DNA of 64,000 bases from Mesorhizobium sp. (GTDB lineage Bacteria; Pseudomonadota; Alphaproteobacteria; Rhizobiales; Rhizobiaceae). The stretch lies in the NCBI GenBank assembly GCA_022833215.1, contig JAIPUZ010000061.1, positions 37,927 through 101,926 on the forward strand. The letters run 5' to 3'. The position numbers and the translations under genes were made by a program. The stretch's first letter is position 1; each line of letters opens with the position of its first letter. This document shows, piece after piece, positions 7,676-62,922 of the stretch. Below the pieces are notes generated by a model. It searched no databases. It was not told the DNA's origin and saw only the letters and a program-made list of their open reading frames with translations.

Positions 7676-8443
7676 TCAGCGCCAGGCCGCCAGCCAGCCA
7701 AGCCCGGCTTCTGTTGTGCTGCGCGGCCTGTATTCCGCGCCGAAGTGGCCGCGATAGCCGCCTTCGGCCAGCTTGGGCAGGAGGCAGGCGAAATCGATTT
7801 CGCCTGAATCCGGCTCGCCGCGGTCCGGAACGGCGGCGAACTGGACATGGCCGATCCTGTCCTTGTGGGCCTCGAATTCCTCCAGCACCGGCTTTCCCGC
7901 GCGGCCGACATGATAGCAGTCGAACATGATGCGGATATTGGCACGGCCGGCTTCTGCGATGATCGCAGAAGCCGTTGCGTTGTCGCTGAGGAAATAGCCC
8001 GGCGCGTCGTGCCGGTTGATCGGCTCGATCAGGATCGTGATGCCAGAGGGCGCTGCCTGGTCGGCGGCATAGCGCAGGTTGGCGATGAAGGTTTCGCGCG
8101 CTTCCGGCGCATCGGTCTTGCCGGCCATGACGTGGACTGCGCTTGCGCCGATCTCCTCAGCATAGGCCAGCGCCTGATCGATGGCTTCGCGGGCATCCTG
8201 CTCGCGGCCCGGCAGGGCGGACAGTCCGAAATCGCCGTTTTCCAGATTGCCGCGCGATGTGTTGAGCCCAAGCACCGGCAGGCCGGTTTCGGCCAGCGCC
8301 TGCTTCATCTCCATTGCATCTGTCGCATAAGGCCAGTGCAGTTCCACAGCCGTAAACCCGGCACGTTTTGCGGCATGTACGGCATCCGGCAGCGACAGTT
8401 CCGTCCACAGGAAGCCGAGATTGGCCGAAAAGGACAGGCTCAT
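7676..8443 (-). CDS. otnI: 2-oxo-tetronate isomerase (hydroxypyruvate isomerase family)
   Basis: This is a 255-residue TIM-barrel isomerase of the Hyi/AP-endonuclease-2 family. In the known tetronate pathway OtnI converts 2-oxo-tetronate to 3-oxo-tetronate. The first strand FSANLGFLWTELSL, the acidic metal/catalytic segments ILIEPINRHD and IRIMFDCYHVGR, and HVQFAAVPDRGEPDSGEIDF are typical. ATG 8443 follows the otnC stop by 2 nt. Hydroxypyruvate isomerase is the alternative on sequence alone, but four tetronate genes upstream in one operon favour OtnI. Confidence 0.88.
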   Translation of the reverse strand: MSLSFSANLGFLWTELSLPDAVHAAKRAGFTAVELHWPYATDAMEMKQALAETGLPVLGLNTSRGNLENGDFGLSALPGREQDAREAIDQALAYAEEIGASAVHVMAGKTDAPEARETFIANLRYAADQAAPSGITILIEPINRHDAPGYFLSDNATASAIIAEAGRANIRIMFDCYHVGRAGKPVLEEFEAHKDRIGHVQFAAVPDRGEPDSGEIDFACLLPKLAEGGYRGHFGAEYRPRSTTEAGLGWLAAWR

Positions 8444-8445
8444 GA

Positions 8446-9096
8446 TTATTCCCACTCGATATTGAAATGATCGACGATGTCCCGCACCTGCGCGGGCGTC
8501 AGCATTTTTGGCGACATGCCACGCGTCAGCAGGGCAAGGCGCGCGGTCTCCTCAAGCTCTTCCATGGCGTAAAGTGCTGCTTCCAGATCTTTGGCGGCGA
8601 CCACCGGCCCGTGATTGGCCAGAAGCACGGCGCTGCGCTTGCCGGCAAGGCCACGGATCGCCTCGCCAATGGCCGCGTCGCCCGGCCGGAAATAGGGCAA
8701 CAGCTTCACCTTGCCGAGCCGCATGATCGAATAGGGTGTCAGCGGCGGCAGCACATTGTCCGGATCGGTTTCCGGCAGCATCGAAAGCGCAACGGAATGG
8801 GTGGAATGCAGATGCACGATGGCGCCGGACTTCGCGCCGCGTGTCTCGTAGAAGGCCGAATGAAGCGGCATTTCCTTGGTCGGCGCGTCGCCGCAAGTCA
8901 GGCGGCCCTGCGTGTCGAGCAGCGAAAGGCGGGCGGGATCGAGCGCGCCCAGCGATGAGCCTGTGGGGGTGACGAGCAGGCGGCCATCGGAAAGGCGGGC
9001 GGAAATATTGCCGGATGCGCCGCCGGTCAGCCCGCGCTCGAAGATCGAACGCGCCATGGTGCAGATCGTTTCGCGCAGGCGCGCTTCTTCGCTCAC
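8446..9096 (-). CDS. otnC: 3-oxo-tetronate 4-phosphate decarboxylase (class II aldolase family)
   Basis: This 216-residue protein is of the zinc-dependent class II aldolase/adducin family. OtnC decarboxylates 3-oxo-tetronate 4-phosphate to dihydroxyacetone phosphate. The metal-binding HLHSTHSVALS segment near residue 98 and a third His in LLANHGPVV are present, with GGASGNISARL near the N-terminus. The start overlaps the end of otnK by 4 nt. The gene lies between the kinase and the isomerase, the usual order in tetronate operons. Confidence 0.9.
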   Translation of the reverse strand: MSEEARLRETICTMARSIFERGLTGGASGNISARLSDGRLLVTPTGSSLGALDPARLSLLDTQGRLTCGDAPTKEMPLHSAFYETRGAKSGAIVHLHSTHSVALSMLPETDPDNVLPPLTPYSIMRLGKVKLLPYFRPGDAAIGEAIRGLAGKRSAVLLANHGPVVAAKDLEAALYAMEELEETARLALLTRGMSPKMLTPAQVRDIVDHFNIEWE

Positions 9097-10352
9097 CCCT
9101 GTCTCCCTTCTAGCATGGCCAGCGCTTTGGAGAAGAAATCCTCCGAGCCGAAATTACCAGACTTGAGGGCGAGCCCGAAATCCTCGTCGCCAAGACGCAG
9201 CATCGGCACGCCGGGGTCGATCTCCGGGCCGACCTGCAAGGCTTCGCAGGCAAGGCCCTGCACCACCGCGCCGGATGTTTCGCCACCGGCGGAGACCAGT
9301 CGCCTCACGCCGAGGTCGCGCGCCTGTGCCGCCAGACCGGCAAAGAAGGCTTCGATGCGGCCCGCAAGCTCTTCGGTTCCATAGCGTTGCTGGGCGTGGC
9401 CGACTTCTTCCGGGTCGGCGGAAGAAAACACCAGCGGCGCACCCTCAAGGTTCTGCTGGAGCCACACGGCAGCGGAGGCAGTCGTCATGTCGCCGGCCAT
9501 CAGGGCATCGGCCTTGATTTCCAGAGAAGGATGGCCGGCGCGGTAGTGTGCAACCTGCGCGCGCGTGGCACGCGAGCACGAGCCGGAAAGTACGGCGCCC
9601 GGTCCTTCGATCGCGTTCCACTGAACGTCGCGGTTGCCGATCAGACCCTTGCGGCGGAAGTTCTCCGGCAGGCCGAGTGCAACGCCGGAACCTCCGGTGA
9701 TGAGCGGAAGGTCCGCTGCCGCTTCGCCGATTGCGATCAGGTCTTCGTCCTGCACCGCATCCACCACCACCAGCGTGCTGCCCTGCGCCTGCTGTCGCGT
9801 GAGCGCTTCGCCAATGGCCTGCGCGCCGCGCCGCACATCGCTAAAGCCGACATGCCCGACCGGCAGCGCCGTCTGATGCTGAAGCCAGCGGCGAATGTCG
9901 GGATCGGTCATCGGGGTGAGCGGATGCGCCTCCATCCCGGATTCGCTGAGCAGCCTGTCGCCCACGAACAGATGGCCCTGATAGATGGTGCGGCCGGTCG
10001 CCGGAAAGGCCGGGCACACGATGACCTTCTCCGCACCCAGCGCCTTGACCAGCGCTTCGGCCACGGGTCCGATGTTGCCCTGCGGCGTGGAATCGAAGGT
10101 CGAGCAATATTTGAAGAAGAACTGGCGGCAGCCCTGTTCACGCAGCCATTCCAGCGCCTCGAGCGATTGTGCGACAGCCTGCTCCGGGGCGATGCTGCGC
10201 GTCTTCAGCGCCACGACGCCGGCTTCGACGCCGGCGTCGGCCTTTCCGCGCGGCACGCCGCAATATTGTGTTGTCGCCATGCCGTTCTTGACCAGCGTAT
10301 TGGCCAGATCGGACGATCCGGTGAAGTCGTCGCCTATGCAGCCCAGCAGCAT
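9093..10352 (-). CDS. otnK: 3-oxo-tetronate kinase (four-carbon acid sugar kinase)
   Basis: This 419-residue kinase has the two-domain fold formerly called DUF1537. OtnK phosphorylates 3-oxo-tetronate at C4. GCIGDDFTGSSDLANTL at residues 4-20 marks the N-terminal substrate domain, and VSAGGETSGAVVQGL near residue 355 is the nucleotide-binding signature. ATG 10352 gives the family-typical N-terminus MLLGCIGDD and follows the dehydrogenase stop by 1 nt. It is the committed step of the operon. Confidence 0.93.
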   Translation of the reverse strand: MLLGCIGDDFTGSSDLANTLVKNGMATTQYCGVPRGKADAGVEAGVVALKTRSIAPEQAVAQSLEALEWLREQGCRQFFFKYCSTFDSTPQGNIGPVAEALVKALGAEKVIVCPAFPATGRTIYQGHLFVGDRLLSESGMEAHPLTPMTDPDIRRWLQHQTALPVGHVGFSDVRRGAQAIGEALTRQQAQGSTLVVVDAVQDEDLIAIGEAAADLPLITGGSGVALGLPENFRRKGLIGNRDVQWNAIEGPGAVLSGSCSRATRAQVAHYRAGHPSLEIKADALMAGDMTTASAAVWLQQNLEGAPLVFSSADPEEVGHAQQRYGTEELAGRIEAFFAGLAAQARDLGVRRLVSAGGETSGAVVQGLACEALQVGPEIDPGVPMLRLGDEDFGLALKSGNFGSEDFFSKALAMLEGRQG

Positions 10353-49361: not shown

Positions 49362-51089
49362 ATGTCGGAGCAAAAGAAGCTGCGGTCCGCCGCCTGGTTC
49401 GGGGGAACAGGCAAGAATGCATTCATGCATCGAAGCTGGATGAAAAATCAGGGTATTCCGGATGATCTGTTCGATGGCCGGCCGGTGATCGGTATCTGCA
49501 ACACATGGTCGGAATTGACGCCTTGTAACGCGCATCTGCGCAATCTTGCAGAACATGTGAAGCGTGGCGTTTATGAAGCGGGAGGCATGCCGGTCGAATT
49601 TCCGGTGATGTCGCTCGGCGAATCCAACATGCGCCCAACGGCCATGCTCTTCCGCAATCTCGCAAGCATGGATGTCGAGGAGTCGATCAGGAGCAATCCG
49701 ATGGATGGCGTCATCCTGCTGGTCGGCTGCGACAAGACCACTCCCGCATTGTTGATGGGCGCAGCGAGCTGCAACCTGCCGGCGATCGCCGTTTCAGGTG
49801 GACCAATGCTGAACGGAAACTTCCGCGGCCAAACCATCGGCTCGGGTACACACGTCTGGAAATTTCATGAAGATGTGAAAGCCGGCCGCATGTCGGTCGA
49901 GGATTTCATCGGTGCCGAACAGGGGCAAAGCCGCTCTGCCGGAAGCTGCATGACGATGGGCACTGCTTCAACAATGGCAAGCGTGATCGAAGCACTTGGA
50001 ATTGGCCTGCCGGACAACGCTGCCATTCCCGCGGTGGATTCGCGGCGCGGTGTGCTCGCTCATCTTGCCGGTCGACGCATTGTCGAAATGGTCAGGCAGG
50101 ATGTAACCATGTCGCGCATCCTGACACGTGCTGCTTTCGAGAATGCCATTCGGGTGAACGGTGCGATCGGAGGCTCCACAAATGCCGTTATTCATCTGAT
50201 CGCGATTGCACGGCGTATCGGCGTCGATCTCAACCTCGACGATTGGGACAGGCTCGGGCGCGATATCCCAACAATCGTCGACCTGATGCCTTCGGGTCGT
50301 TTCCTGATGGAAGATTTCTACTATGCCGGCGGCCTGCGCGCCGTCATGCGCGCGCTCGACGAGGCCGGACTGTTCAACAGCGATGCCGAAACCGTCACCG
50401 GCGCTACTATTGGTGAGATCATCAAAGATGCGCCGAATTACAACGCCGAGGTTATCCGGTCTCTTGGCAATCCGCTGACGGAGAATGGCGGCATCGCCGT
50501 ATTGCGTGGCAATCTCGCCCCAAACGGTGCGGTCATCAAGCCTTCCGCAGCGTCACCGGACCTGATGCAGCATCGCGGCCGCGCCGTGGTCTTCGAAACC
50601 ATCGAAGACTATCACGCCCGCATCGATGACCCGGACCTCGATATCGATGCCAATTGCGTGATGGTACTCAAGAACTGCGGGCCCCGCGGTTATCCGGGTA
50701 TGGCCGAAGTGGGCAATATGGCACTCCCGGCCAAGCTTTTGAAACAAGGCGTTTCCGACATGGTCCGGATTTCCGATGCCCGCATGAGTGGAACCGCCTA
50801 TGGCACGGTTATATTGCATGTCGCACCGGAGGCAGCCTGCGGCGGAACCCTGGCGCTTGTGCGTAATGGCGACATCATAGAGTTGGATGTCGCCAACCGG
50901 CGGCTGGAACTTCTGGTCGATGAAGCGGAACTCGCCGCACGCCGGCAAGAGTGGTCGCCTCCGCCACCACCGCCGGGCGGCGGTTATCAAAGCCTGTTTA
51001 TCGAGCGCGTATTGCAGGCCGATGAAGGGTGCGACTTCGACTTTCTGGTAGGCCGGCGCGACGCAGGCATCCCCCGCCACTCCCACTGA
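49362..51089 (+). CDS. Sugar acid dehydratase, IlvD/EDD family (probable L-arabinonate dehydratase)
   Basis: This 575-residue iron-sulfur enzyme dehydrates an aldonate to a 2-oxo-3-deoxy acid. The cluster cysteines are Cys46 (GICNTWSELTPC), Cys123 (VGCDKTTP) and Cys197 (AGSCMTMGT), and GAIGGSTNAVIHLIAIARR is the family hallmark. The C-terminal GGYQSLFIERVLQADEG and GIPRHSH match the pentonate dehydratase group. GGGGAAGAG precedes ATG 49362. L-arabinonate is favoured because an AraD1 dehydratase follows; D-xylonate is the alternative. Confidence 0.89.
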   Translation: MSEQKKLRSAAWFGGTGKNAFMHRSWMKNQGIPDDLFDGRPVIGICNTWSELTPCNAHLRNLAEHVKRGVYEAGGMPVEFPVMSLGESNMRPTAMLFRNLASMDVEESIRSNPMDGVILLVGCDKTTPALLMGAASCNLPAIAVSGGPMLNGNFRGQTIGSGTHVWKFHEDVKAGRMSVEDFIGAEQGQSRSAGSCMTMGTASTMASVIEALGIGLPDNAAIPAVDSRRGVLAHLAGRRIVEMVRQDVTMSRILTRAAFENAIRVNGAIGGSTNAVIHLIAIARRIGVDLNLDDWDRLGRDIPTIVDLMPSGRFLMEDFYYAGGLRAVMRALDEAGLFNSDAETVTGATIGEIIKDAPNYNAEVIRSLGNPLTENGGIAVLRGNLAPNGAVIKPSAASPDLMQHRGRAVVFETIEDYHARIDDPDLDIDANCVMVLKNCGPRGYPGMAEVGNMALPAKLLKQGVSDMVRISDARMSGTAYGTVILHVAPEAACGGTLALVRNGDIIELDVANRRLELLVDEAELAARRQEWSPPPPPPGGGYQSLFIERVLQADEGCDFDFLVGRRDAGIPRHSH

Positions 51090-51097
51090 GGCTGATC

Positions 51098-51877
51098 ATG
51101 ACCGGTGAAATTGGAAACGGGGCGCTCTATCCCAGCCTCAAGGACCGCAGTGTCTTCATTACAGGTGGCGGCAGCGGCATTGGCGAAAGCCTGGTCGAGC
51201 ATTTTTGCGCGCAGGGCAGTCGCGTCGCTTTCGTCGATATTATGGAAGAACCGTCACGCAAGCTCGTTGAACGCATCCGCCATAAAGGCGATCCCGCACC
51301 GCATTTCATGGCATGCGATCTGCGCGACATTGAAAGCCTGCGTTTCGCCATAGCCGAAGCAGCAGAGCGGAACGGCCCGATCCGGGTGCTGTGCAACAAT
51401 GCGGGCAATGATGACCGTCACCGTATGGAGGACGTGACCGTTGACTACTGGGATGACCGCATGGCCGTGAACGTCCGGCATCAGTTCTTTGCTGCCCAGG
51501 CGGTGCGCCCACTGATGAAGGCCGCCGGCGGTGGTTCCATAATCAATTTCGGCTCAATTACCTGGATGGTCGGCGATGGCGACTGCCCGGCCTATGTTAC
51601 GTCCAAGGCGGCAATCACTGGCATGACCAGAGCTCTGGCCCGTGAGCTGGGCCCCGAACGTATCCGGGTCAACTGTATGATCCCCGGCTGGGTCATGACC
51701 GAGCGCCAGGTGCGTCTGTGGCTCAATACCGAGGGCGAGCGTCAGATAACGGAGCGCCAGTGCCTGCCCGACCGTCTCTATGCGCCGGATATTGCACGTA
51801 TGGCGTTGTTTCTCGGTGCGGACGACAGCCGCATGTGCTCGTCACAACAATTCATCGTCGACGGAGGCTGGGTTTGA
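51098..51877 (+). CDS. SDR-family sugar 1-dehydrogenase (L-arabinose/D-galactose type)
   Basis: This 259-residue short-chain dehydrogenase has TGGGSGIGESLVEHF (NAD(P) fold, residues 24-38), NNAGND, catalytic Ser in NFGSITWM and YVTSKAAITGM (YxxxK). YPSLKDRSVFITGG at the N-terminus is the style of pentose/galactose 1-dehydrogenases. It probably oxidises the free pentose to its lactone, the first step of the pathway. It follows the dehydratase by 8 nt. Confidence 0.88.
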   Translation: MTGEIGNGALYPSLKDRSVFITGGGSGIGESLVEHFCAQGSRVAFVDIMEEPSRKLVERIRHKGDPAPHFMACDLRDIESLRFAIAEAAERNGPIRVLCNNAGNDDRHRMEDVTVDYWDDRMAVNVRHQFFAAQAVRPLMKAAGGGSIINFGSITWMVGDGDCPAYVTSKAAITGMTRALARELGPERIRVNCMIPGWVMTERQVRLWLNTEGERQITERQCLPDRLYAPDIARMALFLGADDSRMCSSQQFIVDGGWV

Positions 51878-51915
51878 GGCTTCCGCGGACGGAAAACAGC
51901 AAGATGGGGGTACCT

Positions 51916-52914
51916 ATGCGTCTCGTTCAATACACTGATGCTGCTGACAAGCGTGCGGTCGGTGTTGTCACCAGGGACGGCGACCATCTTCATCGGCTTG
52001 CTGGCGTTACGTCCGTTTTCGAGCTCGCCAATCGCGCCATCGCAACCGAGACTTCGCTTAGCGAAGTAGCACTAAAGGCGGCCACCGACGAAATTGTCGA
52101 CTACGATGCCCTTTTAAACGCGGGCCGTGTCCTGCCGCCAGTGGACCATCCCGAGCCCGCACGCATGCTGGTAACGGGCACCGGCCTTACCCATATCGGC
52201 AGCGCTTCGGCTCGCAACAAAATGCATCAGCTGACTCATGGCGAGGATGCAGACGAGTCGGATTCGATGAAAATTTTCAAAATGGGCATAACCGGTGGCA
52301 AGCCGGCTCCCGGTGAGTTGGGCGTGCAACCGGAATGGTTTTTCAAGGGCGTCGGCACCTGTATCGTCCGGCCTGGCGCTGCGCTGCCGCTACCGGCCTT
52401 CGCGCTGGCCGGGGCTGAAGAGGCAGAAATAGTCGGCCTTTATATCATCGGCCCGGACGGCACGCCGTTCCGCATCGGATATGCTCTCGGCAACGAATAT
52501 TCCGATCATGTCACCGAAGCCAGAAACTACCTCTATCTTGCGCATTCCAAATTGCGTGCCTGCTCGATCGGCCCGGAATTGCTGGTTGGCGACCTGCCGC
52601 ACGAAATACGTGGCACCTCCCGTATCCATCGTGGCGGTGCTGTCTTGTGGGAAGAAGAATTTCTCTCCGGCGAGAAGCACATGTCTCACTCCATAGCCAA
52701 TCTGGAGCATCATCATTTCCGTTATCAGCTGCATCGCCGGCCCGGCGACCTGCACGCTTATTTCTTCGGGGCGGCCGTCATGAGTTTCGCTTCCGGTGTC
52801 GTGACGCAGGCAGGCGACGAATATGAGATGTCGGCATCGGTCTTCGGCAAGCCATTGCGCAACCGCATGGAAGAAGTTCCCGATGAAGGTCTTGTCACTG
52901 TCAGTGCCCTGTAG
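51916..52914 (+). CDS. araD1: 2-oxo-3-deoxy-pentonate dehydratase (AraD1/GguC, FAH family)
   Basis: This 332-residue protein is a fumarylacetoacetate-hydrolase-fold enzyme. MLVTGTGLTHIGSASARNKM near residue 85, FFKGVGTCIVRP, and the metal-binding EEAEIVGLYIIG are features of the AraD1/GguC group that dehydrates L-2-keto-3-deoxyarabonate to 2-oxoglutarate semialdehyde. ATG 51916 has a G-rich SD 6 nt before; ATG 51904 is also in frame. Together with the dehydratase and the aldehyde dehydrogenase it completes the Weimberg-type route. Confidence 0.88.
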   Translation: MRLVQYTDAADKRAVGVVTRDGDHLHRLAGVTSVFELANRAIATETSLSEVALKAATDEIVDYDALLNAGRVLPPVDHPEPARMLVTGTGLTHIGSASARNKMHQLTHGEDADESDSMKIFKMGITGGKPAPGELGVQPEWFFKGVGTCIVRPGAALPLPAFALAGAEEAEIVGLYIIGPDGTPFRIGYALGNEYSDHVTEARNYLYLAHSKLRACSIGPELLVGDLPHEIRGTSRIHRGGAVLWEEEFLSGEKHMSHSIANLEHHHFRYQLHRRPGDLHAYFFGAAVMSFASGVVTQAGDEYEMSASVFGKPLRNRMEEVPDEGLVTVSAL

Positions 52915-52925
52915 GTGGAAACGAA

Positions 52926-53705
52926 ATGAGCGAGGAGACTTCACGTCGCCATCAGTTTGCTCAGGAAATCGCGAGGGAAGCGGGAGCAATAGCACGCCGG
53001 TACTTTCGCTCGGGCGATGGCTTGCGCGTCACCGAAAAAGGAGCGCACGATCTGGTGACGCAAGCGGATCTGGAGATAGACCGCTTGCTGATAAAGCGCC
53101 TGACCACCATGTTTCCCGAAGATGGTATTCTGACCGAAGAGTCGGGCGGCATTGCCGCACAGCGTCTCTGGGTGATCGACCCAATCGACGGGACACAGAA
53201 TTTTGCGCGCGGCATAGCCCATTTCGCGATCTCGATTGCCTTTCACGCCGATGGGGAAACTCAATGCGGTGTCATTTACGACCCTGTCTCGGAAGAAATG
53301 TTTACGGCGCAACGGGGATTGGGCGCCTTCCTCAATGGCAATCGTCTTCATGTTCGCAATCCGGCGAGTCCGAACCAGGCAATCGTCGATGCAGGCTATT
53401 CGCTCAACCGGCCGGTCAGCGATTATGCCGAACTGGTGAACCGCCTTCTGTGCGCTGGTTACGGTTTTTTACAAGGCGGTTCGGCAGCTATCGGTCTGGC
53501 ACAGGTGGCCTGCGGCCGGACAGATGCTTATTGCGAGCTGTTCCTGAACAGTTGGGACGTGCTTGCCGGCCTTCTCCTGATAGAAGAAGCTGGCGGGTGG
53601 GTCAGCGATTTCACCGCGAATGGTGGCCTGTACCACGGCAATGCTGTTCTGGCTTGCGCGCCACCACTTCGCGATCAACTCTCCCAGCTTTCACGAATAT
53701 TTTGA
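52926..53705 (+). CDS. Inositol monophosphatase-family phosphatase
   Basis: This 259-residue Mg2+-dependent phosphatase has ILTEESGG (metal Glu) near residue 70, WVIDPIDGTQNFARGIAHFAIS (metal/phosphate motif) and WDVLAGLLLIEEAGGWVSD near the C-terminus. The family includes inositol, fructose-1,6-bis- and histidinol phosphatases. It is the last gene of the plus-strand half of the pentose locus. Its role there is unclear; it may recycle a phosphorylated by-product. Confidence 0.92.
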   Translation: MSEETSRRHQFAQEIAREAGAIARRYFRSGDGLRVTEKGAHDLVTQADLEIDRLLIKRLTTMFPEDGILTEESGGIAAQRLWVIDPIDGTQNFARGIAHFAISIAFHADGETQCGVIYDPVSEEMFTAQRGLGAFLNGNRLHVRNPASPNQAIVDAGYSLNRPVSDYAELVNRLLCAGYGFLQGGSAAIGLAQVACGRTDAYCELFLNSWDVLAGLLLIEEAGGWVSDFTANGGLYHGNAVLACAPPLRDQLSQLSRIF

Positions 53706-53893
53706 TGCGGGAGAACGGGGATGTTCGGTAAGGCAAGAATCCCCAGCAACCCTATGGCCCAGACCAGATAAGTGTCCACGGTTCTGAGAAGCCATGCCCT
53801 GCGAATTCATCTGCAAGGCATGGACCTCATAGCGCGGACGGTTCGCTGTAAAGCCGCTCCGGCAGTGCCGGGAGGCAAACGGCGGGGATGGCC

Positions 53894-54565
53894 TCAGCGG
53901 GCGGTGCCTACGGGCTGGATGTAGGTCACGATCGAGCCTTCCGGCAGTTCGAGCGCTTTTGCAATGGCCTCCCGGTTGGCCGCGCCGCCGATCAGGCAGG
54001 TGCCGAGTCCTTCGGCAACGCAGGCGAGATAGACATTCTGGGCGCAGATTGCCGCATTGACGTGCGCACCGACGGCAAGAGCCTGTTCGTCCGCGCCCTC
54101 GGCGGCCTTGCGCAGCGCCTCACCGTCGGAAACGAAGATCAGCAGAGCCGGTGCGCGCGAGACGAAAGCGCTGTCGCTCGATTCGGCCCGGATATCGGTA
54201 TCGCCAATCTTCTCCAGCGTATTTGTTTCATGTGCGTGGCGAAACAGGCCCTCGGCGGTGGCGACATAGATGATCGTATCGTTCGCGGAACGCCAGGAGG
54301 GCGAGGTGCGGCCGCCGCTGTCGGGGCGGTTGATGCCGTTGGCGGCCCACAAAAGCCGAAGCAGCGCGTCCTCTGCGACCGGGGTCGGCGCGAAACGCCG
54401 CGACGACTGGCGGCCTTCCAGCGCGGCCTTGAGGGTGATATCGCCGATGGCGGCGGCAGCGGGCGTTGCGGTGGCCAGTGCGATGGGGGCCAGTGCGATG
54501 GGAGCCAGTGCGACCGGAGCGGATGCGGACGCGGCGAGGAACAGGCGGCGGTTGAAGTCAGTCAT
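53894..54565 (-). CDS. Nitroreductase-family protein with Tat-type signal peptide
   Basis: This 223-residue FMN-type protein starts MTDFNRRLFLAASASAPVAL, a twin-arginine-like signal, followed by a repetitive Ala/Pro/Leu core and probable cleavage after ATATPAAAA. LEGRQSSRRFAPTPVAEDAL and ANGINRPDSGGRTSPS are nitroreductase features, as is GLGTCLIGGAANREAIAKAL. A periplasmic nitroreductase is unusual. It lies at the 3' end of the nqr unit, with a CBS protein between. The signal region contains a 15-nt tandem repeat. Confidence 0.87.
   Translation of the reverse strand: MTDFNRRLFLAASASAPVALAPIALAPIALATATPAAAAIGDITLKAALEGRQSSRRFAPTPVAEDALLRLLWAANGINRPDSGGRTSPSWRSANDTIIYVATAEGLFRHAHETNTLEKIGDTDIRAESSDSAFVSRAPALLIFVSDGEALRKAAEGADEQALAVGAHVNAAICAQNVYLACVAEGLGTCLIGGAANREAIAKALELPEGSIVTYIQPVGTAR
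54471..54515. repeat. 15-nt tandem repeat in the nitroreductase signal peptide
   Basis: Three consecutive 15-nt units share GCCAGTGCGA (54471-54485, 54486-54500, 54501-54515), with a fourth degenerate copy after them. Each unit encodes the five residues APIAL or a variant. Repeat number changes would lengthen the signal peptide by five residues without breaking the frame. Confidence 0.85.
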
Positions 54566-54595: not shown

Positions 54596-54997
54596 TCAGC
54601 GCCACTGTTTCGACAGGGCGCGCAGGACGTCGGTGCGGCTGATCTGCCCGACCAGCCGGCCGTCGTTCAGGACGGGAAAGCGGCGATAGGCGCTGTCGAC
54701 GAAGCGCTGGGCGGCGGAGACGAGATCGAGCTCCGCCTCAAGCGTTTCCAGTTCGGTTGACATGAGGTCGGAAACCGAGCCGCCCCATTCCTTGTAGTAG
54801 GCGGCGTTGAGAGCGGCTTTCAGGCAATCGCGCTTCGACAGAACGCCGACGAGGTTGCCCTCCTCGTCCAGAACGCATGCGCCCGACACGCCGGTGTCGA
54901 GCAGTATGGTGACCGCGCGGATAATTTCCATGTCGGCGGTCAGGGTAACCAGATCGGTCTGCATGTGATCCGCCACCGTGGCAATGGCCTCGCTCAT
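54596..54997 (-). CDS. Two-CBS-domain protein
   Basis: This 133-residue protein is made almost entirely of a CBS pair (VTLTADMEIIRAVTILLDTG then SGACVLDEEGNLVGVLSKRD; and FVDSAYRRFPVLNDGRLVGQ). Such stand-alone modules bind adenine nucleotides and regulate partner proteins. It overlaps the nqrM stop as ATGA, so it is translationally coupled to the NQR operon and may sense adenylate or NAD status for it. That role is inference. Confidence 0.9.
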   Translation of the reverse strand: MSEAIATVADHMQTDLVTLTADMEIIRAVTILLDTGVSGACVLDEEGNLVGVLSKRDCLKAALNAAYYKEWGGSVSDLMSTELETLEAELDLVSAAQRFVDSAYRRFPVLNDGRLVGQISRTDVLRALSKQWR

Positions 54998-55171: not shown

Positions 55172-56101
55172 TCAGATCATGTGCGACTTGAAGGCGGTAT
55201 TCATGCTGGCTCGCAGCAAACCGCGGTCACGGATCAGATAAAGTGCGCCGACACCCTGTTCGTCGGCGAAGGCAAGCCCCCTCTCCTCTCCCATCACCAG
55301 AAGAGCGGTCGCCAGCGCGTCGGCGTGCATGGCGCTTTCCGCAATGACGGACACCGACGCGATGTTGTCCGCAACAGGTTTTCCGGTCGCAGGGTCGATG
55401 GTGTGGGAATAGCGGCGACCGCCGATGTCATAGTGGTTGACGGCATCGCCCGAGGTGGCCACCGCGCAAGAGCCGAGACGAATGCGGCTATGCACGCCGC
55501 CCTTGTCAGGGTCGGCTATTCCCACCGGCCAATCGCCCTTCGTTCGGATTTCTCCTCCGATTTCAACAATGAAATCAGATGTTTGAGTTGATACAAGTTC
55601 CGCAAGCCTGTCCACGGCGAAGCCTTTGGCGATGCCGCAGAGGTCGAGCGTCACGCTGCCTTGCCGCAACAGGTGACCATCTGCGCAGGCGATCTGTCTC
55701 CAGTCCCCTGCCCTCCCCCGGATCGGGCCGAAACCATAACGCGCGACCGCAGGGCCGACGGTCGGGTCGAAGGCTCCGTCCGAGATGCGCGCCATGTCGA
55801 GTGCAGCTTGCGCAACCTCGGCGAAGTCACCGGATACCCTCACCCGGGGCGCGGTCATGTTGAAGCGGGTGAGTGCGCTGTCGGGGCGAAACGGGCTCAT
55901 CTGCGCATCGATTTCGTCAAGGAGTGCGCCTATCCGCGGTGCGAGCGCCTCGGGAGCGGCCAGATCGCGCGCAACGACATGCCATGTCGTGCCAAAAGCC
56001 CGTCCGGAAAGGCGGACGCGACCCGCGGCGAACGCTTTCATCGGACCGAGACCGGCAATTGCCGCAAGGCCGAAAAGGGCGCTGCGCCTGGTGATGCGCA
56101 T
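55172..56101 (-). CDS. apbE: FAD:protein FMN transferase
   Basis: This 309-residue flavin transferase attaches FMN to Thr of NqrC (and normally NqrB) in the periplasm. MRITRRSALFGLAAIAGLGP at the N-terminus is a twin-arginine-type signal. FGTTWHVVARDL, LDLCGIAKGFAVDRLAEL and the metal-binding VIAESAMHADALATALLVMG are ApbE motifs. ATG 56101 lies 4 nt after the nqrF stop. Its presence shows that covalent FMN attachment still occurs in this complex. Confidence 0.94.
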   Translation of the reverse strand: MRITRRSALFGLAAIAGLGPMKAFAAGRVRLSGRAFGTTWHVVARDLAAPEALAPRIGALLDEIDAQMSPFRPDSALTRFNMTAPRVRVSGDFAEVAQAALDMARISDGAFDPTVGPAVARYGFGPIRGRAGDWRQIACADGHLLRQGSVTLDLCGIAKGFAVDRLAELVSTQTSDFIVEIGGEIRTKGDWPVGIADPDKGGVHSRIRLGSCAVATSGDAVNHYDIGGRRYSHTIDPATGKPVADNIASVSVIAESAMHADALATALLVMGEERGLAFADEQGVGALYLIRDRGLLRASMNTAFKSHMI

Positions 56102-56105
56102 GGGA

Positions 56106-57326
56106 CTAGATTCCGAAATCGTCATTGTGGATGTCCTCCGGATCGACGCCGCAATCGTCGAGCATCGCATAGACCGCCTGGATCATGAGGGGCGGACCGC
56201 ACAGGTAATATTCGCAGTTCTCCGGCTCGGGATGGTCACGGAGATAGTTGCGGAACGCCACATCATGGATGAAGCCGGCAGCACCTTGCCAGTCGTCTCC
56301 CCTGGCTGGCTGCGAAAGTGCAGGAACCCAGCGGAAATTCGGGTGGCGGGCCGCTAACTCCTCGAACTCCTGCGCGTAGAACAGTTCCGCTCTGGCGCGC
56401 GCGCCATACCAGAAGCTCATCTTGCGGCTGGTCCCGACCTGCCCGAGTTGTTCATGGATCATCGCCCGCAGCGGCGCCATGCCGACACCGCCACCGATGA
56501 AGATCATCTCCTTGTCCGTATCCTGCACCCTGAACTCGCCATAGGGCCCCGCAACGCCGACCTCTTCGCCGGGCATGAGCCCGAACAGCCATGATGAAAC
56601 GATCCCGGGCGGCGCATCCGGGTTTCCGGGCGGCGGAGTGGCAAGCCGGATATTCAGCACAATGTTGCCCTTGTCCTGCGGACGGCTGGCCACTGAATAG
56701 GCACGCGATACAGGTTCCGGACCTGCGGCGACGAGGTCGAGAATGCCGAGCCGCTGCCACTCGGCGCGGAAGGTCTCGGGCTGGACGATGTCACGATAGG
56801 CGCGCCGGTAGGCCGGAGCGGTCACCTGAATGAAATTGCCGGCGCGGAAATTGAAATCCGCTCCTTCGGGCAGAGCCAGCACGATCTCGCGAATGAGTGG
56901 CGTCACGCTGCGGGTCGAGGCGACGGTGCAGGAATAGCTGGCGGAACCCAGCACATCTGCGGGCACGCTCAGTTTCATGTCGCCGCGCACCGTAACCTGA
57001 CAGGCCAGCCGCACGCCGGCACGGAGGTCGGCTGCGGAAAGGCGGGCGGCTTCGGTGGCGAGAGGCCCCTGGGTGCCCGTTACATCGGAGACGCGACACA
57101 ACCCGCAGGTGCCCTGCCCCGCACAGCCGGAAGGCACCGGGACGCCGGCTGCATTGAGAACGTCCAGCAACTTCTCGTTGCTGAGCCCTTCGATCCTGCG
57201 ATGTCCGTTAATCGTAAGGCTGACAGGCCAGGATGGCAGAAGCCTTGCCCGCACGCTTTGCAGCAGAACGGCGAGAAGGACGGTCAGGCCGGTGAGGAAG
57301 AGAAAGGCGACGGCGATCTCGGTCAT
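56106..57326 (-). CDS. nqrF: Na+-translocating NADH:quinone oxidoreductase subunit F
   Basis: This 406-residue NADH-oxidising subunit has an N-terminal membrane helix, a [2Fe-2S] domain with Cys68, Cys74, Cys77 and Cys109 in the spacing of other NqrF proteins, an FAD domain ([13 protein letters not shown]) and an NADH domain ([15 protein letters not shown]). ATG 57326 overlaps nqrE as ATGA. The full length matches the family (about 407). Confidence 0.95.
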
Positions 57327-57925
57327 GGCAGGCTCACCCCCGCGAAGGCGGAAAAGCCCATGGACATGATGCCGGCGACGATGAAGGCTGCGCCAAGCCC
57401 TTCGAGGCCTTCGGGAATATCCGCGTAGCGAAGCCGCTCGCGGATGGCGGCGAAGGCCGTGATTGCCAGCGCCCATCCGATGCCGGTGCCGAGGCCGTAG
57501 ACCGCGCTTTGCGCGAGATCATAGTCGCGTTCGACCATGAACAGGCTGCCGCCGATGATCGCGCAGTTGATCGCCAGCAATGGCAGATAGATGCCCATGG
57601 CGACATGCAGCGCCGGCGCATAGCGCTCCAGCACCATTTCAAGCACCTGCACCAGCGCCGCGACGATGCCGAGGAAGGTGATGAGACGCAGGAAATTGAG
57701 GTCTACGTCGCCGAGCCCGGCCCATGCCAGCGCCCCCGGACCAAGAACATGGGCATAAAGGAGATGGTTCATCGGCACGCTGATGCCCTGCACGACGATC
57801 AGCGAGATGCCGACGCCGATGGCGGTCTTCACCTGCCGCGAGACGGCGAGGAAGGTGCACATGCCGAGGAAGAAGGACAATGCGAGATTTTCCTCGAATA
57901 TCGAGCGCTGAAAGAGGTCCATCAT
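57323..57925 (-). CDS. nqrE: Na+-NQR subunit E
   Basis: This 200-residue integral membrane subunit has about six helices. Cys23 ([10 protein letters not shown]) and Cys121 ([13 protein letters not shown]) are the conserved ligands that, with two of NqrD, hold the intramembrane iron centre. It starts with two Met codons and overlaps nqrD as ATGA. Confidence 0.95.
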
Positions 57926-58575
57926 GGCCGCGCCTCCGGCCTGCTCTCGCGCAGCGCGAACTCACGCGCCTCGACGAGGCGAGGCCGCCATGCACGAAGC
58001 GCCCAGATCAGAAGGCCGAGAATGATGAAGGCCGACGGAGCGAGGAGCATGAGACGCAGCGGCACAAACCATCCGCCATCGGCCTGCGTGATGAGCACCT
58101 GCATGCCGAACAGCGAACCTGCCCCGAACAGTTCGCGGATCGCGGCCACGGTCATCAGCACGAGGCTGTAGCCGAACCCGTTGCCCATGGCGTCGAGCAT
58201 GGCGGGAACGGGAGGGTTATGCATGGCGTAGGCTTCGGTGCGGCCAAGGACGATGCAGTTTGTGGCGATCAGCGAAACGAAGACCGTCAGCCGCTGGCTC
58301 ATTTCGAAGGCGAAAGCCTGCAACATCTGGTCGGCCACGATCACCAGCGTCGCGATGATGGTGAGTTGCAGGATGATGCGGACCTGGTTCGGAATATGGG
58401 CGCGGATCGCCGAAATGATCCCGGCGGCCAGCGTCACCACGACCGTCAGCGCCACCGACATGGTGAGCGCCGTCGACATGGAGGTGGTGACCGCAAGCGC
58501 CGAACAGATGCCGAGGATGTGGACGGCAACGGGGTTCTTGTCGATCAGCGGATCGGAAAGCTGTTTCAGGGCCAT
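57922..58575 (-). CDS. nqrD: Na+-NQR subunit D
   Basis: This 217-residue membrane subunit is homologous to NqrE. Cys24 in [11 protein letters not shown] and Cys107 in [13 protein letters not shown] are the conserved iron ligands. It overlaps nqrC by 10 nt. It fits NqrD rather than RnfE by the neighbouring nqrA, nqrF and nqrM. Confidence 0.94.
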
Positions 58576-59351
58576 GCCGTACCTTCCCGCAGATTTTCGA
58601 TGAATGGACCGAAGCCGTGCTCGCCCAGCCAGAAGTGCACCATGTCCACGGTGCCGTAGGTGGTGACTGAAGCGCCCGAGATCATCTCGACCTCGTACGG
58701 GCCGGAAGCGCCAGCCGAGGCGTCGATCATGATTGACCCCTCCTCCGCGATCTTCTTGCCGGCCCAGCCACGTGAAAATTCAGCTTCGGCGACACGGGAG
58801 CCGAGACCCGGCGTTTCGCCCTGCTCGTAGACAGTGAAGGCTGCGACCGTATTGAGGTCGCCTTCAAGCGCCAGATAGGCGCGAATGGTGGACTGGTAAC
58901 CTGCACCCCGGACGGGCAGGACCAGAAGTTTCACTTCGCCCTTGTCGCGCACCATCCACACCAGCGCTTCGTTTTCCCGCCTCGATATGGCGGCAAGATC
59001 GGTCGCCGGCGAGAGAGCGATGCTGCGGTCGGGATCGGCGGCGGCTGCATTCTGATCGAATGTGGCTGCATCCGTATCCGAGATCCTGCCGGCGTCGAGA
59101 TCGACGACGAATGTTTCGATACCGCCTCCGTCCAGCAACTCGGCGATCCCCGGTACGCCTTCAAGCATGGCGCTCATCTGGCCGGCGCGCGCCGCGAGAC
59201 GATTGTCCTCGATCTTCGGGCGAAGTGCCACTGCCGTGACCGACACGATCAGCGCGCAGCAGGCTGCAACGACGGCTGCCATGCCGATGGATTTCACCGG
59301 GTCGCTGTTTGGACGCTCCAGAAGACGGCGGATCGGGTTCTTTCTAGACAT
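58566..59351 (-). CDS. nqrC: Na+-NQR subunit C
   Basis: This 261-residue subunit has an N-terminal membrane helix and a periplasmic FMN-binding domain. MISGASVTTYGTVDMVHFWL near residues 222-241 contains the S-G-A-x-x-T motif with the Thr (about residue 229) that receives FMN from ApbE. ATG 59351 overlaps nqrB by 8 nt. Confidence 0.94.
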   Translation of the reverse strand: MSRKNPIRRLLERPNSDPVKSIGMAAVVAACCALIVSVTAVALRPKIEDNRLAARAGQMSAMLEGVPGIAELLDGGGIETFVVDLDAGRISDTDAATFDQNAAAADPDRSIALSPATDLAAISRRENEALVWMVRDKGEVKLLVLPVRGAGYQSTIRAYLALEGDLNTVAAFTVYEQGETPGLGSRVAEAEFSRGWAGKKIAEEGSIMIDASAGASGPYEVEMISGASVTTYGTVDMVHFWLGEHGFGPFIENLREGTAWP

Positions 59352-60126
59352 GGCGTAGCCTCCGGGCACGACGCCGCATCAACCGGGTATGGACGGAAGC
59401 AACCATATGGTCGAGCAAGGGGGCGAAGATCGATGCCAGCAGGGTTGCAAAGACAAGGGCGCCGAAAGCTGGTCCTCCGGTGCTGAAAAGGGCTGTAAGC
59501 ACTCCGGCAAGAAGACCGTAGAGAATCCGGCCCGCGGTGGTGGAGCCTGAGGTAACAGGATCGGCAGTCAGGAAAAGCAGTGCAAGGAGCATTGTCCCGC
59601 TCTGGAAAAACGCGGCAGGAAGCTCCGGCGAAATCAGGGATGCGAGCACGGCGACGGCGATTGCGAAGGCGATGAGCACCGACAGACGCGCCTGCCCGGC
59701 GCCGACAAGCAAGACAAGAGCAGGCAGAACGGCAACTATCGGCAGGCTTGCGCCTTCGCGCCATGGCTGGTCCGCGAACGAGAAGGCGAGGAAGGCGAGC
59801 GTCAGGACGACTGGCTGCACGAAATTGCGCCCTCGCCCGCCGAATACGGCCTCGCCCAGCACAAAGCCGAAGCTGATGCCGATCGCCAGTTGCCAGAACG
59901 GTGCGGAGGCCGGAACGTAAATTGCGACCAGTGCGGCCGCGACGAGGCCGTGAGCGGTAACCCCCTGCCCGCGCATGAGGGCAAAAGCGGATTGCCATCC
60001 GATAACCAGAACGGCGCAAAAAAGCAGGCGCGCTGCAAACCATGAATCCTGCGAGGCCAGCATAAGCGCCGGAGCCAGGAGGCTGGCCAACCCCGGCAGG
60101 TTATCGCGAACGAATCCGTGCCTCAT
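59344..60126 (-). CDS. nqrB: Na+-NQR subunit B, shortened form lacking the FMN-site region
   Basis: This 260-residue membrane protein aligns with NqrB in two blocks: GISFGFVLGEAVFGGRGRNF at about residues 83-102, and the C-terminal FLTADPVTSGSTTAGRILYG at about residues 184-203 followed by APLLDHMVAS. Typical NqrB is about 410 residues. The N-terminal arm and the central region that carries the SGAT motif and its FMN-bearing Thr are absent. All other subunits look intact. Overlaps with nqrA and nqrC are preserved and no frameshift is visible, so it looks like a stable variant. Confidence 0.86.
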   Translation of the reverse strand: MRHGFVRDNLPGLASLLAPALMLASQDSWFAARLLFCAVLVIGWQSAFALMRGQGVTAHGLVAAALVAIYVPASAPFWQLAIGISFGFVLGEAVFGGRGRNFVQPVVLTLAFLAFSFADQPWREGASLPIVAVLPALVLLVGAGQARLSVLIAFAIAVAVLASLISPELPAAFFQSGTMLLALLFLTADPVTSGSTTAGRILYGLLAGVLTALFSTGGPAFGALVFATLLASIFAPLLDHMVASVHTRLMRRRARRLRHV

Positions 60127-61349
60127 GCTATGGTCTCCAACTCGTCGAGGGTCTGGCGCAGCAGGACTGTGTAATCCACCCCGTTTCTGTCGCGACCGCC
60201 AAGGCGGTGGTTCAGGGCGGCAATGTCTTCTTCGACAAGACCCAGCACGCCAAGATCGCGCGCAGTTTCGGCATCCCCGGCAGCCAAAGCACGCAGGAGC
60301 GGTATTGGCAGGATTCCCGACGGGCTTGCGGTTTCGTCCCAGAAGTTGGGGATCAGTGCCGGGCGCCGGGATTTGATCATCCTGTTCAGACCGTGGGTAT
60401 GGGCGGGCTTCTCATGATGGAAAAGTGCCGTGATCTGACGAATACCGGGTGTGAGGAACGGTGTGGCCACCCCGGTTTCGACGCTGCCTGCCAGAAGCCG
60501 AAGGGGCGCATCGGCCAGTCTGTCGGCCGCGATATGGTGGAGCCGGGCGCCCGGGGTTGCGGCAACAAGGCCGGGGCGTGTGGCCGCGGGGCCTGACACA
60601 GAGACGATGCGCTGCCCCCAGATGCGGCTGGTCTCCAGAAGATAACCAAGCGCGATGACTTCCTGCCATCCGATCTGCCATACCATGCCCCCATGCGCTA
60701 CCGGGTGCAGTGTATGGATGTGGTCGCCTGGCAGTCCGCCCGAAAACGCCCTTGTTGTAATGCCGGGCACATCCGGCGCGGGTAGCCCTTCTGCATGGCA
60801 AAGACAGGTTCGCCCGGCACCCAGAACGGGGAGCGCGCGAAGGCCGCGCCGGAATGCGTCTTCATAGGAAGCGATGACCGGACCGGGATCCGGCGCACCG
60901 TCGAATGCCTCGGTGGCGGTAACGAAAAGCGCTTCGGGGACATCGGCCGGATCGGCAACCTTGCCAAAGGGCCGCGCCTTTATCGACGCCCACAGACCGG
61001 CCTTGACCATCAGGTCGATCAACCCATCGCGGGTGTCGCTCGTGGAGAGGTCGAAGCTGATTGCGTTCTCGCCCTCGGGAGTGATTTCGAGCGCGGCGAT
61101 GCTCCTGCGCGGACCCGGATCGAGCCGGGAGACAATGCCTGCCGCCGGCGAGACAGCCGAGATCCAGGGACGCTTCCGGTCATGGAAGAGAATGCTTCCT
61201 GCGGCGACCTTCTGTCCTTCCTTGACGGTCACGACAGGTCTGAAGGAGGGGATTTCGGCTCCGAAGAAGCTGAGCGGACCCTTGGGGCTCGCCGTTTCCA
61301 CTGGGCCTGAAATCAGCGAAAGGCCTCCTGGCCATTTCGGGAATCGCAT
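60123..61349 (-). CDS. nqrA: Na+-NQR subunit A
   Basis: This 408-residue peripheral cytoplasmic subunit lacks helices. The N-terminal FPKWPGGLSL then a barrel-sandwich-like region (VTVKEGQKVAAGSILFHDRK), the central GDHIHTLHPV and the C-terminal LGVLGLVEEDIAALNHRL are NqrA features. It is somewhat shorter than usual (about 446). It is the first gene of the operon, with an FNR-type promoter about 65-115 nt upstream. Confidence 0.91.
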   Translation of the reverse strand: MRFPKWPGGLSLISGPVETASPKGPLSFFGAEIPSFRPVVTVKEGQKVAAGSILFHDRKRPWISAVSPAAGIVSRLDPGPRRSIAALEITPEGENAISFDLSTSDTRDGLIDLMVKAGLWASIKARPFGKVADPADVPEALFVTATEAFDGAPDPGPVIASYEDAFRRGLRALPVLGAGRTCLCHAEGLPAPDVPGITTRAFSGGLPGDHIHTLHPVAHGGMVWQIGWQEVIALGYLLETSRIWGQRIVSVSGPAATRPGLVAATPGARLHHIAADRLADAPLRLLAGSVETGVATPFLTPGIRQITALFHHEKPAHTHGLNRMIKSRRPALIPNFWDETASPSGILPIPLLRALAAGDAETARDLGVLGLVEEDIAALNHRLGGRDRNGVDYTVLLRQTLDELETIA

Positions 61350-61595: not shown

Positions 61596-61719
61596 AATGC
61601 GCGCCCTGGACGCGTTAACTATTCGTTAATATTAAATTTCTTGCTGCTGCAAGAGAATCGGGCATAAATGCGGTTTTAGAGCCGTAACGGCTTTTGAAGT
61701 GCATGTGCGGAAAATTTCG

Positions 61720-62922
61720 ATGAATCTGAAAGCCGATATTCCGGACGAAGTCGATGAAGTTGACCTGCTGGTGACGCAGCAAGCCAACGACCTGTCCGCC
61801 ATGCTTCATGAGCACCGGCTGGAGATGTTTCCGCCGGATGCCCGCAAAACCCTGCGTTCTTTCCAGCTTGCCGAAGTGGCTCAGTATCTCGGGGTGACCA
61901 GCGGCTACCTGAAGAACCTGTCTCTCGAAGGGAAGGGGCCGCAGCCGATGGTGACCCCGTCCGGCCGGCGCTCCTACACTGCCGAGCAGATGCTGGAAAT
62001 GCGCCACTTCCTGAACCGACATAGTCGCACGGCCAGATATGTCCCGCATCGAAGCGGCAGCGAGCACCTGCAGGTTCTGTCGGTGGTCAACTTCAAGGGC
62101 GGGTCCGCCAAGACCACCAGCGCTGCTCATTTGGCGCAACATCTGGCGCTGACCGGACACCGTGTTCTGGCCATCGATCTCGATCCGCAGGCTTCTCTTT
62201 CTGCTCTCTACGGCTTTCAGCCCGAGATCGATCATAACGAGTCGCTTTACGAAGCCCTGCGTTACGACGATCAGAGAAAGCCGCTATCCGCCCTGGTCAG
62301 GAAAACCAATTTCCCGGGGCTGGATGTCGTTCCCGCCAATCTCGAACTGCAGGAATATGAATACGATACGCCGCTGGCGCTGTCCCGGAACGATGGTTCC
62401 ATGGGGCGCATATTCTTTGGCCGGCTGGACGAAGCACTGGCGGATGTGGCCTATGACTATGACGTCGTTGTCATCGACTGTCCGCCGCAGCTTGGATATC
62501 TCACGCTGACTGCGCTTTCGTCATCCACGGGGATATTGATCACCGTTCATCCCCAGATGCTGGACGTCATGTCGATGTGCCAGTTTCTCATCATGATGGG
62601 CGAGGTGATGGGCACGCTGAAGCGGGCCGGGGCCAATATGCGGCTCGACTGGCTGCGCTATCTGGTCACTCGTTACGAACCGACCGATGGCCCGCAGAGC
62701 CAGATGGTTGCCTTCATGCGGGCGATCTTCAAGCAGCATGTTCTGGTGAACGAGATGCTGAAGTCGACGGCAATTTCGGACGCCGGCATTACCAAGCAGA
62801 CGCTTTATGAAGTCGAGCGTTCCCAGTTCACGCGGGCAACCTATGACAGGGCGATGGAGTCCCTTCATCGCGTGAACGGAGAGATCACCGAACTCATCCA
62901 CAAGGCATGGAGGCGTCGCTGA
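61720..62922 (+). CDS. repA: Plasmid partitioning protein RepA (ParA ATPase of repABC)
   Basis: This 400-residue ParA-type ATPase has an N-terminal HTH region (LAEVAQYLGVTSGYLKNLSL), deviant Walker A VNFKGGSAKTTSAAHLAQHL near residue 125, and YDVVVIDCPPQLGYLTLTAL. RepA represses the repABC operon and drives segregation. ATG 61720 is used; GTG 61699 is in frame. It overlaps repB as TGATG. Full length for the family. Confidence 0.95.
   Translation: MNLKADIPDEVDEVDLLVTQQANDLSAMLHEHRLEMFPPDARKTLRSFQLAEVAQYLGVTSGYLKNLSLEGKGPQPMVTPSGRRSYTAEQMLEMRHFLNRHSRTARYVPHRSGSEHLQVLSVVNFKGGSAKTTSAAHLAQHLALTGHRVLAIDLDPQASLSALYGFQPEIDHNESLYEALRYDDQRKPLSALVRKTNFPGLDVVPANLELQEYEYDTPLALSRNDGSMGRIFFGRLDEALADVAYDYDVVVIDCPPQLGYLTLTALSSSTGILITVHPQMLDVMSMCQFLIMMGEVMGTLKRAGANMRLDWLRYLVTRYEPTDGPQSQMVAFMRAIFKQHVLVNEMLKSTAISDAGITKQTLYEVERSQFTRATYDRAMESLHRVNGEITELIHKAWRRR

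Follow-up and report, generated by a model that had tools for sequence, protein, structure and literature searches.

The locus examined here raises the question of how an Nqr-type complex could pass on its electrons when its NqrB subunit has lost the region that carries the covalent FMN. It lies on a contig of Mesorhizobium sp. (JAIPUZ010000061.1), of which a stretch of 64,000 nucleotides, hereafter the window, was analyzed. The six subunits NqrA-F are encoded there in one operon together with ApbE (Table 1). The first-pass annotation of this DNA had described a truncated NqrB inside an otherwise complete operon and had proposed that the pump works with one flavin less or that its electrons take a different path.

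The short NqrB and its operon in the window

The lack of the N-terminal arm and of the FMN-threonine region in the window NqrB was confirmed by the 260-aa open reading frame, by a check of its start and by alignment to V. cholerae NqrB, which showed that the arm is missing together with the TM1-2 loop and with some 40 residues of the FMN loop. The gene starts with an ATG that overlaps the nqrA stop, and its frame is open upstream too (355 codons). As the annotated ATG is the first ATG, GTG or TTG downstream of the preceding stop, a hidden upstream start was ruled out and the missing arm is not due to a wrongly chosen start. PF03116 only is present in the short NqrB (99.5 bits in the window protein), and the NCBIfam nqrB models score far under their own cut-offs. 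In its own genome, which also encodes the complex I 49-kDa subunit, this is the only protein matched by PF03116. AlphaFold2 models of the protein alone (pLDDT 56.7, pTM 0.31) and with those of loci L003 and L004 (pLDDT 47.8, pTM 0.28) were too poor for interpretation; the helices of the poor model hint at about ten, NqrB-like, and six segments stood out strongly in a hydropathy scan.

Two objections to a genuine loss were addressed. A displaced SGAT motif was rejected, as any [ST]G[AS][ST] occurs in just 6 of 58 short NqrBs and is not conserved; the SGST of the window NqrB sits after the DPV motif, in the D346 region. A sequencing deletion was ruled out because relatives have the same deletion, and the search for other short NqrBs beside nqr genes, recommended in the first-pass annotation, gathered 61 loci.

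The cofactor sites that had been read as intact in the rest of the window operon proved to be so, namely the NqrC FMN motif (with Ser rather than Thr as acceptor), the two plus two iron cysteines of NqrD and NqrE and the four cluster cysteines of NqrF. Both apbE and an nqrM-like gene are present, the latter lying just over the PF04400 cut-off (22.9 against 22 bits) with no NCBIfam match. The entry subunits match the NqrA and NqrF models, not RnfC or RnfB. The operon is not unchanged outside nqrB either: NqrA has lost part of its C-terminal segment, which measures 10-15 aa in 25/25 short-NqrB operons; in full-length operons it spans 35-37 aa (20/21) or, once, 26 aa. The NqrC motif [ST]GA[ST] was found in all 25 short-NqrB loci checked, and the NqrD, NqrE and NqrF cysteines are kept in 24/24 loci holding these genes, the denominator being 24 because L035 is without them. 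The CBS-domain gene occurs in most short-NqrB operons and in some full-length ones.

Table 1. Genes of the nqr operon in the window
Feature	Position	Strand	Remarks
nqrA, 408 aa, shortened	60123..61349	(-)	C-terminal segment cut as in the short group
short nqrB, 260 aa	59344..60126	(-)	without N-terminal arm, TM1-2 loop and FMN loop
nqrC	58566..59351	(-)	FMN motif SGAS kept; start set at the ATG of MSRKNP
nqrD	57922..58575	(-)	both cluster Cys kept
nqrE	57323..57925	(-)	both cluster Cys kept
nqrF	56106..57326	(-)	four [2Fe-2S] Cys; FAD and NAD domains
apbE, flavin transferase	55172..56170	(-)	
nqrM-like gene, 55 aa	54994..55161	(-)	PF04400
CBS-domain protein	54596..54997	(-)	
nitroreductase-family protein	53894..54565	(-)	begins MTDFNRRLFLAA, Tat-like by reading

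Plasmid partition genes adjoin the operon (ParA-like at 61699, RepB at 62907) and resemble those of rhizobial plasmids at 70-75%; the nearest named relatives are Rhodobacterales records. Among the genomes listed, 8/8 of the same genus are without a short nqrB gene. Possibly the operon is carried on a plasmid, or the contig is foreign (contamination 4.43). On the other side, at 49362-53731, lie dehydratase-, SDR-, fumarylacetoacetate-hydrolase- and inositol-monophosphatase-like ORFs, named by reading only, which are perhaps a sugar catabolic cluster.

Loss of NqrB sites and descent of the short-NqrB family

Residues were counted in 59 alignable short NqrBs and 41 full-length ones; L182 and L183 were left out, no NqrB ORF being given by the script, and two of the 59 short rows are gapped at residues 140-162. 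The roles of the residues follow passages of PMC10643135, PMC9325719 and PMC4014512. The FMN-threonine T236, absent in the window, is found in 0/59 short and 41/41 full-length proteins. The quinone site is lost along with it: N156 is kept in 0/59 short vs 38/41 full-length rows, E157 in 0/59 vs 40/41, F159 in 1/59 vs 40/41, and G140 and G141 together in 1/59 vs 39/41. Besides E157, other acidic residues are likewise depleted (D52, 10/59 vs 40/41; E144, 9/59 vs 40/41), and the median lengths fall from 51 to 10 residues for the N-terminal arm, from 37 to 0 for the TM1-2 loop and from 47 to 7 for the FMN-loop stretch.

The riboflavin pocket is partly retained in the short NqrBs, with G198 in 59/59, D346 in 56/59 (14/41 in full-length rows, the rest having E), T162 in 40/59, N200 in 35/59 and N203 in 29/59, and this suggests that a flavin may still be bound. 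It speaks for a pump that still reduces quinone but has one flavin less, in which the NqrC FMN would reduce a non-covalent NqrB flavin and then quinone, any cytochrome or nitroreductase being accessory. The presence of NqrA in nearly all loci fits this as well, and in the sections of PMC10979944 dealing with two-subunit complexes an NqrB/RnfD-like subunit without flavinylation site is described, with the NqrC-like flavin modelled close to a non-covalent flavin site. The window protein, however, has A at T162 and Q at N203, and the N-terminal arm and the quinone-site residues are gone. Since degradation reaches beyond FMN_B to the quinone site and to the acidic residues of Na+ entry, D52 and E157, the first proposal of the earlier annotation is weakened and we regard such a pump as unlikely. 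A solved V. cholerae NqrB chain in which SGAT reads SGAY, apparently T236Y (PDB 9ud3_B), offers a helpful reference for NqrBs that have no FMN.

The short family aligns with full-length NqrB by hhalign with probability 100, the largest gap falling at the FMN loop. Database records label its members "RnfABCDGE type subunit D" or name the complex Na+-transporting. Relatives at 62-63% occur in Pseudogemmobacter and Xinfangfangia, and others stand on plasmid records of Paracoccus, Shinella, Pseudooceanicola and Nitratireductor. Hosts from the environment include Paracoccus seriniphilus DSM 14827, Shinella sp. HZN7 and Pseudogemmobacter bohemicus. In the same order, 17/397 genomes (the own one included) have a single match over most of the short NqrB, and in another sampled family of the same class a match of E 1e-40 or better was found in 34/295 genomes. 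Among 398 genomes taken phylum-wide, the five near-full-length matches listed (G000, G646, G1047, G1030 and G1069) all belong to the class of the window, and the matches listed outside the class each cover about half of the short NqrB, in open frames of at least 350 aa.

The 61 short-NqrB loci were set against 41 full-length operons (L041, L058-L077 and L185-L204). In a tree of NqrD, NqrE and NqrF (58 short and 41 full-length rows; L035, L172 and L179 are absent, an NqrD, NqrE or NqrF ORF being missing) a single branch with support 100 separates the two groups. Midpoint rooting placed full-length Nqr within the short group and was discarded; with eight Rnf operons as outgroup, a tree of NqrD and NqrE (52 short, 34 full-length and 8 Rnf rows) gave the short rows as one clade (SH-aLRT 93). 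This rooted tree omits 13 loci with near-copies or long or broken rows (L004, L182, L065, L183, L184, L049, L047, L072, L069, L075, L063, L193 and L203). With F_L068 unresolved and a warning from the tool of long branches meeting, the Rnf root is only moderate, so that there is moderate evidence for monophyly of the short group; by this tree, the loss of the FMN and quinone sites would have occurred once.

That NqrB is simply degenerating in a decaying operon with a non-working complex appears very improbable. Broken frames do occur in L179 and L183, and in P. aminophilus pAMI8 the operon breaks off after nqrC at a Tn3 element, but nearly every locus has intact frames and cofactor motifs, with 31-62% identity to the window, and the group is one clade with its own partner genes (see below). 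In pAMI8 (L035, 9001-15272) a recombinase, a Tn3 transposase and an IS5-like element lie past nqrC; in Nitratireductor sp. OM-1 (L039, 11960-12936) two adjacent ORFs are both annotated FAD:protein FMN transferase.

Redox partner genes beside the operon

Beyond the short NqrB itself, the new finding of this analysis is a redox partner gene next to the operon. We scanned the flanks of the 61 short-NqrB loci for ORFs with at least two CxxCH motifs, on which the haem counts rest, and for the nitroreductase of the window; L035, with its operon cut off at nqrC, and L184, which ends in nqrB, were not assessable. A partner was present in 55/59 assessable loci, comprising 49 c-type cytochromes and 6 nitroreductases. 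As the loci belong mostly to one lineage, these are not 55 independent events. A search of open-licence PMC papers found no description of a short NqrB with a cytochrome partner.

The cytochromes are pentahaem in 46 loci, and a Sec-like start was recognized by a crude rule in 46/46 of them. The ORF with five motifs adjoins nqrA in divergent orientation in 45 loci and stands at the far end in L049. The same divergent position beside nqrA is occupied in L165 by a free tetrahaem cytochrome and in L171 by an EB_dh-type protein (192.7 bits) with one CxxCH, below the threshold of the screen and picked up by reading. In L053, whose operon consists of two halves, nqrABC and nqrDEF-apbE-CBS, in divergent orientation, NqrC is continuous with a PF14537 tetrahaem domain (7837-9207, (-) strand; 65.9 bits) resembling the free tetrahaem protein of L165 (blastp 3e-9), and no separate cytochrome ORF with at least four motifs was found. 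The window belongs to the remaining type: most relatives have a multihaem cytochrome gene beside the operon and the window does not, a pentahaem query giving no match in its genome. Its nitroreductase is shared with L003, L004, L036, L042 and L043, and these six operons form one clade with support 100. An RR motif is present in 6/6 of these proteins (five by pattern, the window by reading). We propose this link on six operons of one clade, as a rarer and less understood partner type.

Outside the 55, L122 has a four-motif cytochrome more than 1 kb away with an ORF between, counted as weak, L179 and L183 have cytochrome pieces in broken frames, and the flank scan of L176, which has a short NqrB, found no partner. 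In L122 (8364-14412) there is no nqrA ORF, nqrBCDEF, apbE and the CBS gene being kept; its NqrB is the most degraded, with no FGGxG block and no D at the equivalent of residue 346. In the flanks of the 41 full-length operons, the same scan found 0 ORFs with at least two haem motifs and 0 nitroreductases. These controls have 14 single-motif ORFs, three of them near nqrA, of which one is NqrM-like and another (501 aa) directly precedes nqrA in L068.

The haem or flavin partner tracks the loss in NqrB, which, together with the existence of an NqrC-haem fusion, argues further against a quinone pump lacking just one flavin. The partners, the fusion and the lost quinone-site residues instead support the second suggestion of the earlier annotation, a re-routed electron path.

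A putative electron route to the periplasm

With the flavin and quinone sites of NqrB lost and an exported redox gene nearly always adjacent, electrons are probably sent to the periplasm and not to quinone. We favor, with fair confidence, an Nqr that keeps the outward half of its electron path and whose exit leads through the NqrC FMN to an exported partner. Electrons would pass from NADH to the FAD and [2Fe-2S] cluster of NqrF, then to the [2Fe-2S] cluster between NqrD and NqrE, to the covalently bound FMN of NqrC, which faces the periplasm, and finally to a dedicated exported redox protein, presumably a pentahaem cytochrome c in most relatives and a nitroreductase-like flavoprotein with a Tat-like start in the clade of the window. 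The exchange of partner type with the short NqrB constant, together with the NqrC-haem fusion, points to a contact at NqrC. NqrB would act as a scaffold in the membrane and might still provide a flavin or a path for ions; with the loss of FMN_B and of the quinone site, a return of electrons to the membrane is no longer required, and on the most economical reading this return arm was given up once the NqrC flavin had acquired an exported partner. The sites lost and the motifs kept, the association with partner genes, the single NqrC-haem fusion and descent in one clade were observed; the direction of the electrons, the physical contact, the final acceptor and whether ions are pumped are matters of inference. 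The retention of NqrA in nearly all short-NqrB loci counts against a periplasmic exit, which leaves this subunit unaccounted for; L122, with the other five subunits but no nqrA ORF, speaks in its favor.

Direction is not fixed by anatomy, and Rnf relatives operate in both directions according to PMC12174285. In a reverse flow a periplasmic protein would feed the NqrC FMN and the ion gradient would be spent on NAD+ reduction. We consider this quite unlikely: the Na+-entry acids D52 and E157 are depleted in the short group, as counted above, and a nitroreductase-family protein would be an improbable donor.

Among the closest known systems is Na+-NQR of the V. cholerae type, which shares with the window operon the six genes, their order, apbE, the NqrC FMN motif and the NqrD/E and NqrF cysteines, and has an NqrB core that aligns at the hhalign probability given above. 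The operons of the short group differ from it: their NqrB has lost the N-terminal arm, the loop of the covalent FMN and the quinone-site residues, their NqrA is shorter, and a gene for an exported redox partner is added. The proposed periplasmic exit from the NqrC FMN to a haem or flavin partner has a parallel in archaeal Rnf of Methanosarcina acetivorans, a six-subunit relative with the multihaem cytochrome c gene mmcA beside it. In the relevant parts of PMC4023990 and PMC6703419, the periplasmic flavin of RnfG is proposed as distal acceptor and Rnf as reductant of MmcA, and RnfD has six predicted helices and a potential motif, SGTF; with 285 positions, the NCBIfam model of archaeal RnfD is also short. 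That complex, however, is archaeal, takes electrons from ferredoxin and has RnfB and RnfC in place of NqrF and NqrA, and the parallel is weakened by the report in the same sources that MmcA deletion left growth on acetate unimpaired. The two-subunit Nqr/Rnf-like complexes, as portrayed in portions of PMC8238504 and PMC10979944, share an NqrB/RnfD-like subunit without conserved flavinylation site, and their electrons are proposed to run in one direction, from NAD(P)H to an acceptor outside the cytosol. They consist only of an NqrB-like protein with NAD-binding domain and an NqrC-like protein, whereas the window encodes all six Nqr subunits, NqrB and NqrF being separate.

A wider reading, to which we give an even chance, is that in this alphaproteobacterial branch of Nqr the semicircular pump became a one-way NADH:periplasm oxidoreductase, possibly still ion-coupled, in which the NqrC flavin would serve exchangeable exit modules: pentahaem, tetrahaem (free or NqrC-fused) and EB_dh-type cytochromes, and the Tat-like nitroreductase-like flavoprotein. 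In PMC10643135, FMN_B and the channel of NqrB are at the center of the discussion of how electron flow is coupled to ion movement in Na+-NQR. A conserved Nqr of six subunits that naturally has neither FMN_B nor the quinone site would offer a test of the pumping steps: should it still move ions, coupling would lie at NqrD/E-NqrC. If the proposed route is true, these operons, in records now named Rnf subunit D or Na+-transporting, would represent a bacterial route by which electrons of cytoplasmic NADH reach the periplasm.
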